Source: an uncultured Maribacter sp. (GTDB taxonomy: Bacteria; Bacteroidota; Bacteroidia; Flavobacteriales; Flavobacteriaceae). Taken from it: a stretch of DNA of 64,000 bases. Every line of letters begins with the position of its first letter. Within the stretch, counting starts at the first letter, position 1. A program made the translations under genes and the position numbers. Below, one piece after another: positions 18,163-27,400 of this stretch. The DNA lies in the NCBI GenBank assembly GCA_947493885.1, contig CANLTE010000002.1:700238-764237 (forward strand). Direction: 5' to 3'. Under the pieces are notes generated by a model that did not search any database, had not been told where the DNA came from, and saw only the letters and a list, made by a program, of their open reading frames with translations.

Positions 18163-20103
18163 TTATTCTATAATTATAAATTCTGATCTACGGTTACGTT
18201 GATGTTTTTCTTTTGTGCATGGTACACCATTGGTGCATTCATTAGAAAGTTGCGTCTCCCCAAAACCTTTAAAGGTTAGCCTTTCTTCCGAAATTCCTTG
18301 TTCTACCATGTATTTAGATGTTGCTTTTGCTCGGCGAAGAGAAAGCCCTTGGTTATATTGGTCATTAGCTCTAGAGTCTGTATGAGACCCAATTTCCACT
18401 TTAATTTCAGGAAACTTGTTCATATAGTCTATTATTTTTGTGATACTTACTCTAGCATCTCTTCTAATGTGAGATTTATCAAAATCAAAATAAATAGGTT
18501 CTATACCAAGAAGTTTACCAAGTTCTGTACCTACCGCTGCTGCAAGCCTTGTTTTTTCTAAGGTTAATTCTACATCTGTAGTATCATTAGCGCTTACGGT
18601 TGTAAACAATTTGTCACCGTCATTATAAGATTCCTTTGTAGCAACAAGTTTATAATTACCGTCCTCGCAATTGCTATCCATTGTAAAAGAACCGTCATTC
18701 TTGGTGTATGCTTGGCTTACAGTATTGTTTTCAGAGTCATAAATAATAACACTTGCACCAGCAATGGCAGCTCCTGTTTTATGGTCTTTTATTTTACCAT
18801 TAACAATAGTATGACATTCTAAATCTAATGGTTTAAGCTCATTAAAGCTGTATATATCGTCATCACCGTTTCCTCCTTCACGATTTGAAGCGAAATACCC
18901 TTTTCTGGATTCTTCGTTAAAAATAAAAGAGAAATCGTCTTCCACACTATTCACGGGTTTTCCAATGTTTTTAATGTCGGTTTTTTGTGTATTGTTTAAG
19001 TCCGTCGCAAAAACATCTAATCCCCCCAAACCAGGATGACCGTCAGACGAAAAGTATAAAATATTATTACTTGTTACATATGGGAAAGTTTCTCGACTCT
19101 CTGTATTTATAGGTGCTCCTACGTTTTTTGGAGTACCATAACTTCCATCTTTATTAATGTCTACAACAAAAATATCAGATGCTCCGTATGTACCTTCCAT
19201 GTCGGAAGCAAAAAATAACTTGCTTTCGTCAGGACTTAACGCTGGATGAGCTACAGAATAGTTATCACCATTGAATGGTAGCTCTATAATGTTTGTCCAT
19301 TTATCGTTAACCTTTGTAGCTTTAAATATTTTTAATCTACTTACACCTTCATCATCTCTAGAAAAGTTTCCGTTTTCTGAGTTGTTTCGAGTAAAATAAA
19401 TCGTGGAGCCATCTTTAGTAAATGCAGTTGATGACTCATGAGTTTTTTTGTTTACTAGTTTAGATAATTTGTCAGTATTTACATATTCATCATTTTCGTT
19501 TGGAGCAGATAAATACAAATTTAGAAAAGCGTTATTGTTCCATTTATGAATTCTTTTAGTGATTAACCCACTATCTCTTGCCGTGGAAAACACCAAACTT
19601 TCTCCATAAAATGATGGAGCAAAGTCCGATACCTCAGAATTAATAGCCATGTTTTTAATACTATACCTGCCCGAATTAGCTTTAATTTGGTCAAGATAAT
19701 CTTCATTATCAATAAATTTTTGAGCTCTGTTATCTCCTGATTTTGCAGCATGCACTTTTTGCATCCACATATCTGACTCTTTGTATTTTTGAAGCGATTT
19801 TAGTGATTGAGCATATCGGTACATATACTCAGCTTCAACAGATACTTCTTCTATCTTAAAAAGTTTTTCGTACCAGGATGCGGCCTCTTGATAGTTTGCA
19901 TTTAAATAATGTGCATTACCCAAGTTTTTAAATATCTGCTCGTCGGAGTACCCTTTTTTAACTAGGTGTTCATATGAACTAATAGCTTCTGCGTATGCAT
20001 AATTGTTAAAATTGGTTTCCGCTTTTTTTATGTTTTTTTCTTGAGCATTAAGCATTGCAGCCATTGCAGCAAGACATAAGAATATTGTATTACGTTTTTT
20101 CAT
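18163..20103 (-). CDS. OmpA-family protein with TPR and WD40-like repeats (PorE-like)
   Basis: This periplasmic/outer-membrane protein probably anchors T9SS-related parts to peptidoglycan. The 646 residues comprise a signal peptide; TPR-like helices (about 20-160, e.g. GNAHYLNANYQEAASWYEKL); WD40-like PD40 beta-propeller repeats (about 165-425, e.g. HPALSPDESKLFFASDMEGT); a carboxypeptidase-regulatory-like fold (about 440-515); and an OmpA domain (about 535-646) with IYFDFDKSHIRRDA, SHTDSRANDQYNQGLSLRRA and RNRRSEF. This order is that of PorE-type proteins. It is the last gene of an operon, 12 bp after a PorP/SprF gene. Confidence 0.92.
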   Translation of the reverse strand: MKKRNTIFLCLAAMAAMLNAQEKNIKKAETNFNNYAYAEAISSYEHLVKKGYSDEQIFKNLGNAHYLNANYQEAASWYEKLFKIEEVSVEAEYMYRYAQSLKSLQKYKESDMWMQKVHAAKSGDNRAQKFIDNEDYLDQIKANSGRYSIKNMAINSEVSDFAPSFYGESLVFSTARDSGLITKRIHKWNNNAFLNLYLSAPNENDEYVNTDKLSKLVNKKTHESSTAFTKDGSTIYFTRNNSENGNFSRDDEGVSRLKIFKATKVNDKWTNIIELPFNGDNYSVAHPALSPDESKLFFASDMEGTYGASDIFVVDINKDGSYGTPKNVGAPINTESRETFPYVTSNNILYFSSDGHPGLGGLDVFATDLNNTQKTDIKNIGKPVNSVEDDFSFIFNEESRKGYFASNREGGNGDDDIYSFNELKPLDLECHTIVNGKIKDHKTGAAIAGASVIIYDSENNTVSQAYTKNDGSFTMDSNCEDGNYKLVATKESYNDGDKLFTTVSANDTTDVELTLEKTRLAAAVGTELGKLLGIEPIYFDFDKSHIRRDARVSITKIIDYMNKFPEIKVEIGSHTDSRANDQYNQGLSLRRAKATSKYMVEQGISEERLTFKGFGETQLSNECTNGVPCTKEKHQRNRRSEFIIIE

Positions 20104-20115
20104 GATAGTTAGCTT

Positions 20116-27000: not shown

Positions 27001-27400
27001 CAAAGTTTCCATTAACAGATTCTCCGACAGTTCCCCAAGCATATAAATTATCTGTTGTCGCTACAAATCCCTGTCCTCCAGAATTACCAGAAACGGCAAA
27101 ATGAATAACAGTTCCTGTATAGTTGTACCCATTTGCTGGAATGACTTGAGTTACATTAGGGTCTGTTGTACCGTTTGCTGCCATGTCTTCTCCCCAAGTC
27201 ACGTAGCCAGAGGTGGTTTTAGCCATACTCTGATGGTAGGATGATATTAATACATCATCATTTGGGTTAAAAATGCCTTGACTTGTAATCGTAGGGCACT
27301 GTGAGTTTCCAATAAATGGTAATAACGTTAATGAAAACAGTAGCCATTGTTTAACAGTTAAGGCATACCTCTTCAAATGAGTTTTGAAATAATCTCTCAT
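21092..27400 (-). CDS. Giant SprB-like surface adhesin, T9SS type B cargo
   Basis: The 2102-residue protein has a signal peptide (residues 1-33, ending FIGNSQ) and an RCC1-like propeller region with repeated motifs such as LYAWGTVGES and IYTWGNNV (about 40-420). Ig/HYR-like segments follow. Next come one diverged plus five nearly identical 102-103-residue cadherin-like repeats (about 963-1579) rich in Asp, calcium-binding TSP3 repeats, and Cys-bearing 41-residue repeats (1847-1993). The C-terminal type B sorting domain carries IYNRWGVLVFETRGYDN. It heads an operon with PorP/SprF and OmpA genes, the arrangement of SprB-type motility adhesins. The ligand is unknown; attachment or gliding is inferred. 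Confidence 0.92.
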   Translation of the reverse strand: MRDYFKTHLKRYALTVKQWLLFSLTLLPFIGNSQCPTITSQGIFNPNDDVLISSYHQSMAKTTSGYVTWGEDMAANGTTDPNVTQVIPANGYNYTGTVIHFAVSGNSGGQGFVATTDNLYAWGTVGESVNGNFVSGTSFAAMPGIPFSAADILNLHASSDVLFVLLNSGEIWVATTGTTSPNGNSSNDGTIWQQVQTSSGVPLTGAIQMTGNKYAGYALINNGDIYTWGNNVVLADGSGIQNLDFATLMTAPPVAVSYISSFTNDSGNTGVLALGTDTKIYGVGANTAGELITTGTGVVTTWTTIQASGGGDFTGALYLATSHTSEQYAGAAVITQGATTTDPNILYTWGVNNTNSLGQGGDATIQNPTIPASFTLGTDDPVAASVGGHATTFFNRANGGSICFVGHISNNSTGGLTTGDGSSFECIVPTGVELCGSILLISANDDSGSVVQGVGGTVITNVLSNDDRDGSVPNNTTVDLTQVNTSNPGVTLNTSNGAVNVTPLTPSGIYTLEYQICDAGSATNCKTAIATVTVLAPCSISAISSSNESTCNDNSTANNINDDTFTADITVTFTNKPTTGTLNLSGDATASISVTGLTSPHTFTGVTLPANGSAISLTATFSADVSCTLTDNAVVNAPFECSDENCPDVIPPGSPSAPIASGDISFDITNPGTNASAKTFNSITVGGETFTNLLVPDNISYSYTSESAGNQQIIENSVNGANITDPSSTFDPALISANTDRNLNHYFRNDNNIFATDYVNFEFNYDINAASNRYVVITERGGNNTMEIQAIDNNGDVIGTPQPITRVGQPGQTYIDTGIPNENGQTIHATVYPLTALVGSNVPINGVRLTQSGASGGDGGDGKVFIVYNPFFLTPPPTISLTTSVTQPTCPSNTGSINIIATSNGGGTLEYSINGASGPWQSSNTFTPGPGSYTAAVRYVGAPLCANIDSNSVTLTDAACNPGPVAGDENEATIQDVDIIIDLTNDDTDADGIDDSSIDLDPATPGQQSTISITNEGVYTDNSDGTITFNPDAAFTGTSTITYTVDDTLGATSNIANITVDVQAPPVANNDTTSTLTDTNVSIDLTDDDTDSDGTIDDTTIDLDPATPGQQSTISITNEGVYTDNGDGTITFDPEPTFNGVSTITYTVNDDEGNTSNIANITVDVQAPPVANNDTTSTLTDTNVSIDLTDDDTDSDGTIDDTTIDLDPATSGQQSTISITNEGIYTDNGDGTITFDPEPTFNGVSTITYTVNDNEGNTSNIANITVDVQATPVANNDAESTLTDTNVSIDLTDDDTDSDGTIDDTTIDLDPATSGQQSTISVTNEGVYTDNGDGTITFDPEPTFNGVSTITYTVNDDEGNTSNIANITVDVQAPPVANNDAESTLTDTNVSIDLTDDDTDSDGTIDDTTIDLDPATSGQQSTISITNEGVYTDNGDGTITFDPEPTFNGVSTITYTVNDDEGNTSNIANITVDVQAPPVANNDAESTLTDTNVSIDLTDDDTDSDGTIDVTTIDLDPATSGQQSTISITNEGIYTDNGDGTITFDPEPTFNGVSTITYTVNDNEGNTSNNANITVDVLPDHDRDGINDFIDLDDDNDGISDLDESNGIDPSADDDNDGVPNYLDDEPSNPLVGDTNGSVEPAYDFDGDGIPNHFDIDADNDGILDVNEASNGDLDTNNDGVIDSNDDGFSDTTDNGQADSTEGTTPTDTDGNPTDGPNFLDIDADDDGIPDNVEAQLTSAYIVPADTFDNVGLDTNYLGGLTPIDTDNDNIPDYVDLDSDGDGIDDVIEAGQGTFVGADADNDGLDDGFDDTPGNDVNNDLNTGAITTDNDDLPTTTEVDFREVADSDGDGVLDTKETEDGTDPNNPCDYIIASATVTVSGDYLIADCDGDGVINDQEIIDGTNPEDPCDYQTSSITLSQTGDYLISDCDGDGVTNGDELSDNTDPRDPCDFDVLNVTLDKTGDYLDADCDGDLVTNGQELNDGTNPEDPCSHIGGTIPSGVACDIIFENDLVQPNLNDGVFRITNIESFPENTVRIYNRWGVLVFETRGYDNGNNGFRGISNGRATITKEEALPVGVYFYVVDYTVNGEGRSKQGYLYVNR
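21422..21862 (-). repeat. Tandem 123-bp repeats encoding Cys-bearing Asp-rich units
   Basis: Residues 1882-1993 of the adhesin repeat with a 41-residue period: two full units and a third of 30 residues. A related 35-residue unit precedes them. Each full unit contains DYL-x2-DCDGD, then NPEDPCDY or a close variant, so each has two cysteines and a TSP3-like DxDxDG calcium loop. The DNA copies are less alike than those of the 309-bp array. Confidence 0.8.
22664..24514 (-). repeat. Tandem 309-bp repeat array inside the adhesin gene
   Basis: Five near-identical units of 309 bp (22664-24208; 103 residues each) are preceded by one diverged 306-bp unit (24209-24514). Each unit runs from PPVANND or TPVANND to ITYTVNDDEG and NITVDVQA. 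Differences are few codons per copy (TTST/AEST, ATPG/ATSG, NDDEG/NDNEG). Such homogeneity implies recent duplication or gene conversion. The repeats are coding and are not CRISPR. Confidence 0.93.

Follow-up and report, generated by a model that had tools for sequence, protein, structure and literature searches.

The locus and its three proteins

Three adjacent genes on the minus strand of a stretch of DNA from an uncultured Maribacter sp. are the subject of this account. The stretch, called the window below, is 64,000 nucleotides long (assembly GCA_947493885.1, contig CANLTE010000002.1, positions 700,238 to 764,237 of the forward strand). The three open reading frames (ORFs) encode an adhesin (2102 amino acids, aa), a PorP/SprF-type protein (312 aa), here called the carrier, and an OmpA protein (646 aa) that resembles PorE. 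The gaps are 37 bp between adhesin and carrier and 12 bp between carrier and OmpA protein. At the 3′ end of the trio lies a hairpin (-21.7 kcal/mol, z -5.3) running into a T tract; it emerged on reading and folding of the sequence, the pattern-scan listing having no terminator behind the operon. A first-pass annotation had described the same gene order, gaps and terminator, and the ORFs, spacing and folded hairpin bear it out. The three genes are likely to act as one unit. The features are as follows.

21092-27400, minus strand: adhesin, a cargo of the type IX secretion system (T9SS), 2102 aa (ORF and domain matches)
26066-27298, minus strand: RCC1-like head of the adhesin, residues 35-445 (PF00415 just below cut-off; 22 related proteins)
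22669-24465, minus strand: 309-bp tandem repeats, 5.8 copies, a CshA/Big_9-type stalk (repeat and domain scans)
21428-22663, minus strand: acidic DxDxDG-rich stretch, TSP3-like, residues 1580-1991 (regular expression; TSP3_bac below cut-off)
21101-21367, minus strand: CHU_C secretion signal domain, residues 2012-2100 (CHU_C 1e-19)
20116-21054, minus strand: PorP/SprF-type carrier, cysteine-free (PF11751 1.7e-93)
20119-20136, minus strand: last six residues of the carrier, LTPRFF (ORF translation; compared across carrier sets)
18163-20103, minus strand: PorE-like protein with TPR, PD40, CarboxypepD_reg and OmpA domains (Pfam and NCBIfam matches)
18229-18492, minus strand: OmpA domain, residues 538-625, a predicted peptidoglycan binder (Pfam; alignment to PDB 6top)
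18103-18140, minus strand: terminator hairpin and T run, position approximate (folding)

The carrier belongs to the PorP/SprF family, as had been annotated: PF11751 matches residues 19-297 with 313.6 bits, and TIGR03519 scores 282 bits against a cut-off of 90.55. Its 312 residues include no cysteine, and so it lacks the Cys-X-Cys (CxC) tail of the mobile gliding SprF. It ends instead in PRFF, a cysteine-free tail that the first-pass annotation had passed over. By carrier, the closest named relative is an uncultured Maribacter sp. at 99% identity (the window's own genome was possibly excluded from the comparison); no solved structure matched the carrier by sequence at E up to 1.

The protein encoded last shows the domain order of the PorE family, TPR, PD40 propeller, CarboxypepD_reg and OmpA, much as the annotation had it: OmpA (1.2e-18), PD40 (1.5e-14) and CarboxypepD_reg (1.6e-12) are clear, and TPR is weak, below cut-off. 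The OmpA domain aligns with PDB 6top, which we take to be the C-domain of Porphyromonas gingivalis PorE. The lipobox of a lipoprotein is absent; among 122 relatives, a crude regular expression finds one in two.

The adhesin had been called a T9SS type B cargo of 2102 residues. Its size stands, and it has a CHU_C domain (PF13585, 70.9 bits against a cut-off of 27, 1e-19), which places it among type B cargo; the NCBI type B model TIGR04131 scores 23.1 bits, under its cut-off of 35, and the label thus rests on CHU_C and on comparison of the C-terminal domain (CTD), given below. Domain search finds six CshA/Big_9/cadherin-type repeats. The earlier description of an RCC1-like head with calcium-binding repeats survives in softened form. 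The head alone gives one weak RCC1 repeat (PF00415, 21.0 bits against 21.7), but it has 22 relatives at 30-99% identity, several with RCC1-type Pfam domains, counting PF25390, which we take to be RCC1-like. The adhesin also matches TSP3_bac weakly (16.9 bits against 25) and has 19 D.D.D[GN] motifs by regular expression, so that calcium binding is plausible. Two of the head relatives carry the name T9SS type A; cargo classes therefore share heads, and the RCC1-like head does not define the unit. Another (P0122), with a head 99% identical, is 309 residues shorter and has three fewer repeat starts, so close relatives differ in stalk length. No solved structure matched the adhesin by sequence at E up to 0.001.

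Upstream of the adhesin, beyond a gap of 220 bp, lies a tRNA nucleotidyltransferase-like gene (27621-29045; its model matches fall short of the cut-offs). The window has no Rfam family at gathering score.

Carrier tails and the genes beside them

The genome has 13 PorP/SprF genes. Six end in [ST]PR[FY][FY], and a PorE-type gene follows five of these (the window carrier, L009, L011, the L012 gene at 13861-14853, and L013); the sixth, L010, has no PorE next to it. Two carriers have a CxC tail (L012 at 2817-3839, and L015), neither with PorE; three are long, including two that bear a SPOR domain (L017, L014); the remaining two (L014 at 9000-9887, L018) have other tails. A cargo gene precedes all five PorE-linked carriers, that of L009 being interrupted by the contig end, so that the genome holds five adhesin-carrier-PorE trios. 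PorE-type OmpA proteins number six: five adjoin a carrier, and the sixth, 805 aa long and extended at its N-terminus, is an orphan (L016:2509-4926, plus strand). The genome also encodes the gliding track, with GldJ at 898.8 bits and a GldK that has Cys280 and Cys336 (compare Cys285 and Cys343 in Flavobacterium johnsoniae).

To set tail type against neighbor, the next gene within 400 bp was recorded for three sets of carriers, drawn from the best-scoring carriers among the matches listed, with weaker carriers outside the sample. Of 103 regions planned, 100 were covered. The first set holds 170 carriers, seven of them from other families; they come from 35 assigned genomes plus a single locus whose genome is unrecorded. 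The second comes from 89 loci of other families and holds 87 carriers (none at L199, L247 and L254, two at L246). The third, or unseen, set gave 20 carriers from 20 regions (none at L394, two at L404); it was new to all three tail rules, but its genomes are those of the second set. The PRxF pattern is a post hoc widening of [ST]PR to PR, made once the first set and 29 of the 89 loci from other families were known, and the VRFL and CPxF classes were defined on the second set itself. One carrier (L225, PCPRF) counts as PRxF in one tally and as CPxF in the later tally of 170 and 87 carriers.

In the first set PorE follows 92 of 108 PRxF carriers, as against none of 41 CxC, one of five CPxF, none of three long and none of 13 other carriers. 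The second set repeats this (PRxF 22/26, VRFL 0/11, CPxF 0/8, long 0/5, other 2/37; overall, 22/26 PRxF versus 2/61 non-PRxF) and adds two further associations: GldK is next to all 11 VRFL carriers and five of the 37 others, and GldJ is next to seven of eight CPxF carriers and none elsewhere. Ten of the second-set neighbors were checked by NCBIfam. Six are best matched by GldJ (454.6-505 bits; five exceed its cut-off, 458.2), three by GldK (581-601 bits, above cut-off), and one matches a short GldJ model below cut-off. GldJ is never next to the five first-set CPxF carriers, which come from two genomes of other families; the CPxF-GldJ link is therefore not universal. In the unseen set the rules hold for 15 of 16 typed carriers (PRxF with PorE 6/6, VRFL with GldK 4/4, CPxF with GldJ 5/6); the miss is the first of a tandem CPxF pair, the second of which precedes GldJ, and GldK is next to one of the four untyped carriers. 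Around 80 named loci near the window carrier have PorE after 64 of 84 PRxF carriers and after one that ends in TSRFF. Absence of PorE does not imply a CxC tail: that idea is rejected, as many carriers have neither.

Carriers with a CPxF tail and GldJ directly downstream occur at L215, L216, L243, L244, L255, L268, L402, L403, L404, L411 and L412; these may perhaps be linked to the track through a single cysteine. A VRFL-type tail with GldK directly downstream is seen at L218, L221, L227, L229, L234, L238, L249, L250, L256, L262 and L269, and in the unseen set at L397, L398, L406 and L410.

The cargo differs along with the carrier. Profiles built from the C-termini of cargo encoded upstream of carriers tell CxC from PRxF partners in 122 of 126 cases (five-fold cross-validation), and the CTD of the window adhesin scores 97.8 bits with the PRxF profile versus 23.8 with the CxC profile. 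Other cargo can be placed in the same way. In its region 7822-14080 (minus strand) the window encodes a second type B cargo (907 aa; TIGR04131 104.7 bits) beside ABC-transporter genes and beside a protein with an IgGFc_binding domain, with no carrier adjoining; its CTD scores 86.6 bits with the CxC profile and 49.2 with the PRxF profile, so it may be mobile. Two cysteine-rich cargo proteins elsewhere in the genome (L020:2890-11514 and L021:800-9226, both plus strand; 2874 and 2808 aa) likewise lack an adjoining carrier and have CTDs that score with CxC carriers.

The orphan carrier and orphan PorE can be asked whether they travel together. L010-type PRxF carriers number seven and form one clade (support 100), and, of 31 genomes, the seven with such a carrier and no others have an orthologue of the orphan PorE at 1000 bits or more. 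A second comparison covered 31 genomes, of which 15 recur from the first and 16 came by way of named loci (L331 not covered); here the carrier is present in 19 (at least 467 bits) and absent from 12 (at most 405 bits). Of the 19, 15 have the PorE at 1000 bits or more, three give ambiguous scores (625, 716 and 755) and one an unclear score (564); where the carrier is absent, the best PorE match is 547 bits. Such co-occurrence, in related genomes, supports the pairing but does not prove it.

In some proteins a carrier barrel is joined to a further domain in a single chain. One PorP/SprF barrel (L240:838-2454, plus strand) is extended in the same frame by TSP3 repeats plus an OmpA domain (7.7e-18). 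Four others end in a SPOR domain above cut-off (L228:1617-3779, minus strand, 3.9e-13; L257:838-2220, plus strand; L017:6039-8129, plus strand; L014:3294-4949, minus strand), and two more (L232, L258) match SPOR below it. The L017 protein has 1432 relatives at E up to 1e-10. A barrel and a wall-binding domain in one chain would do what the carrier and PorE do as two. A structure prediction made without alignment for the SPOR-fused carrier P0001 reached a mean pLDDT of 34 and was not used.

A probable wall-fixed unit and its alternatives

Bacteroidota display many adhesins on one surface, some mobile and some static. Whether an adhesin moves is decided by its cargo signal and its carrier, and the deciding residues are known for the mobile SprF; we know of none established for static carriers.

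One way to understand the trio, and the one we consider probable, is as a static adhesin unit fixed to the cell wall. The carrier would receive the adhesin from the T9SS translocon and dock, by its PRFF tail, on the PorE-like protein; this in turn would hold carrier and adhesin to peptidoglycan through its OmpA domain, leaving the RCC1-like head as the presumed binding part. That the PRFF tail makes the PorE contact is an inference; carrier-dependent export, the PorE-PorP-cargo complex and static behavior are attributed to the trio by analogy with published relatives. Several lines of evidence meet in this reading: a cysteine-free carrier in a genome that does encode the gliding track (GldJ, GldK); the association of PRxF with PorE, the co-occurrence of the orphan pair, the SprF-OmpA and SprF-SPOR fusions and the PRxF-type CTD of the adhesin; and the anatomy of the trio set beside the published complex, the static adhesin Fjoh_3952 and the CxC-bonded mobile SprF. 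The first-pass annotation had proposed a unit devoted to surface attachment and provided with outer-membrane fixation of its own. The unit is retained; the place of fixation is not, as the predicted hold is on peptidoglycan through the OmpA domain, with no lipobox present, nor is the head as its defining part.

A more general proposal treats the tail as an address label. PRxF would direct a carrier to PorE and the wall, CxC to GldK and the gliding track, VRFL to GldK and CPxF to GldJ, and fusion to an OmpA or SPOR domain would bypass the label. We hold this to be about as likely as not. If it is true, a few residues would show whether a type B adhesin is mobile, and exchanging tails could change that; the adhesins of a genome could be sorted by sequence into wall-fixed and track-driven; and PorE copies would be one-to-one partners of static adhesins.

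Several observations weigh against the static, wall-fixed reading. Some PRxF carriers lack a PorE gene within 400 bp (first set 16/108, second set 4/26), and PorE-linked carriers without a PRxF end exist (L044, L236, L253 and, in the named set, L279, which ends in TSRFF). One genome (G121) has the orphan carrier and no clear PorE partner. PorE-type NCBIfam models match the third protein near full length and below cut-off (NF053607 448.6 bits against 620, NF052230 347.7 against 600), for which reason it is called PorE-like here and not PorE itself. Cysteine-less SprF variants still meet the track transiently (PMC12635249). Finally, tail and neighbor are inherited together. A tree of 257 barrels, built with the tail removed, requires at least 22 tail changes and at least 19 linkage changes; in a pairwise test the four to five informative pairs all point in the expected direction, with a median p of 0.125, which is not significant.

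A second perspective starts from this shared inheritance and supposes that the tail is a family marker only. Carrier-PorE, carrier-GldK and carrier-GldJ would be three ancient operon types passed down vertically, each keeping its own tail for some other purpose such as barrel insertion, with PorE met through other surfaces of the carrier. The small number of independent changes and the non-significant sign test fit this, as does the largest pure PRxF clade, 61 of the 257 carriers, in which 12 keep the tail with no PorE adjoining. It must still account for a terminal motif of four to five residues conserved over many families, and for the same position being a proven partner contact in F. johnsoniae SprF (PMC12635249). 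A general need for the terminal aromatic pair in barrel insertion is rejected, since CxC carriers do without the pair; this also counts against the family marker, which on balance we hold to be unlikely.

The PorE-like protein might, on another account, be an accessory of secretion, for example a support of the T9SS ring, and not an anchor. In P. gingivalis small amounts of PorK and PorN co-purify with PorE and PorP, which are counted as T9SS components; against this, the PorP-cargo complex assembles without PorE (PMC9143113). Six PorE-type proteins in one genome, five adjoining carriers, suit a partner for each adhesin better than a single core part, and a mere accessory role appears quite improbable. 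Least credible of all is an SprB-like gliding adhesin on the track, to which the gliding genes of the genome and the brief track contacts of cysteine-less SprF lend some color, but which the cysteine-free carrier, the PRxF-type CTD and the position of the dynamic F. johnsoniae substrates, not encoded with PorE (PMC12618676), make very improbable.

Relation to published systems

The pairing of an RCC1-like head and calcium-binding repeats with a PorE-like anchor encoded alongside had been put forward as new. This claims too much: adhesin-SprF-PorE operons are published (PMC9143113, PMC12618676), and this genome alone has five trios. Gorasia (2022) found six porP-like genes of F. johnsoniae adjoining porE-like genes, postulated wall anchoring of non-mobile adhesins, and showed the P. 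gingivalis PorE-PorP-PG1035 complex (PMC9143113). Paillat (2025) described five adhesin-SprF-PorE operons in F. johnsoniae, with the Fjoh_3952 adhesin seen in static foci only (PMC12618676); Liu (2025) found the mobile SprF bonded to GldK through its Cys-X-Cys tail (PMC12635249). What is taken here from earlier work on the complex, the PorE operons and Cys-X-Cys bonding rests on these three papers and PMC10994853. The trio is thus a further example of a known operon type, and the carrier tail pattern is the part not found in print: the literature searched (preprints and most subscription journals excluded) gave no report of the tail-neighbor pattern, of PRFF in connection with SprF, of a SPOR domain linked with PorP and SprF, or of PorE, SprF, disulfide and adhesin treated together.

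The nearest parallel is Fjoh_3952-3951-3950, where a type B adhesin, an SprF-like shuttle and a PorE homologue share a single operon (PMC12618676); the window adhesin has an RCC1-like head and a long repeat stalk. P. gingivalis PG1035-PorP-PorE offers the same three roles, cargo, PorP-like barrel and PorE-like OmpA protein, but its PorE is termed a lipoprotein (PMC9143113), whereas the window protein has no lipobox, and that species has one PorP where this genome has 13. F. johnsoniae SprB-SprF is alike in pairing a giant adhesin with its own SprF carrier. There, however, the Cys-X-Cys tail is bonded to GldK and SprB moves (PMC12635249); here the carrier is cysteine-free, ends in PRFF and has a PorE-type gene adjoining.

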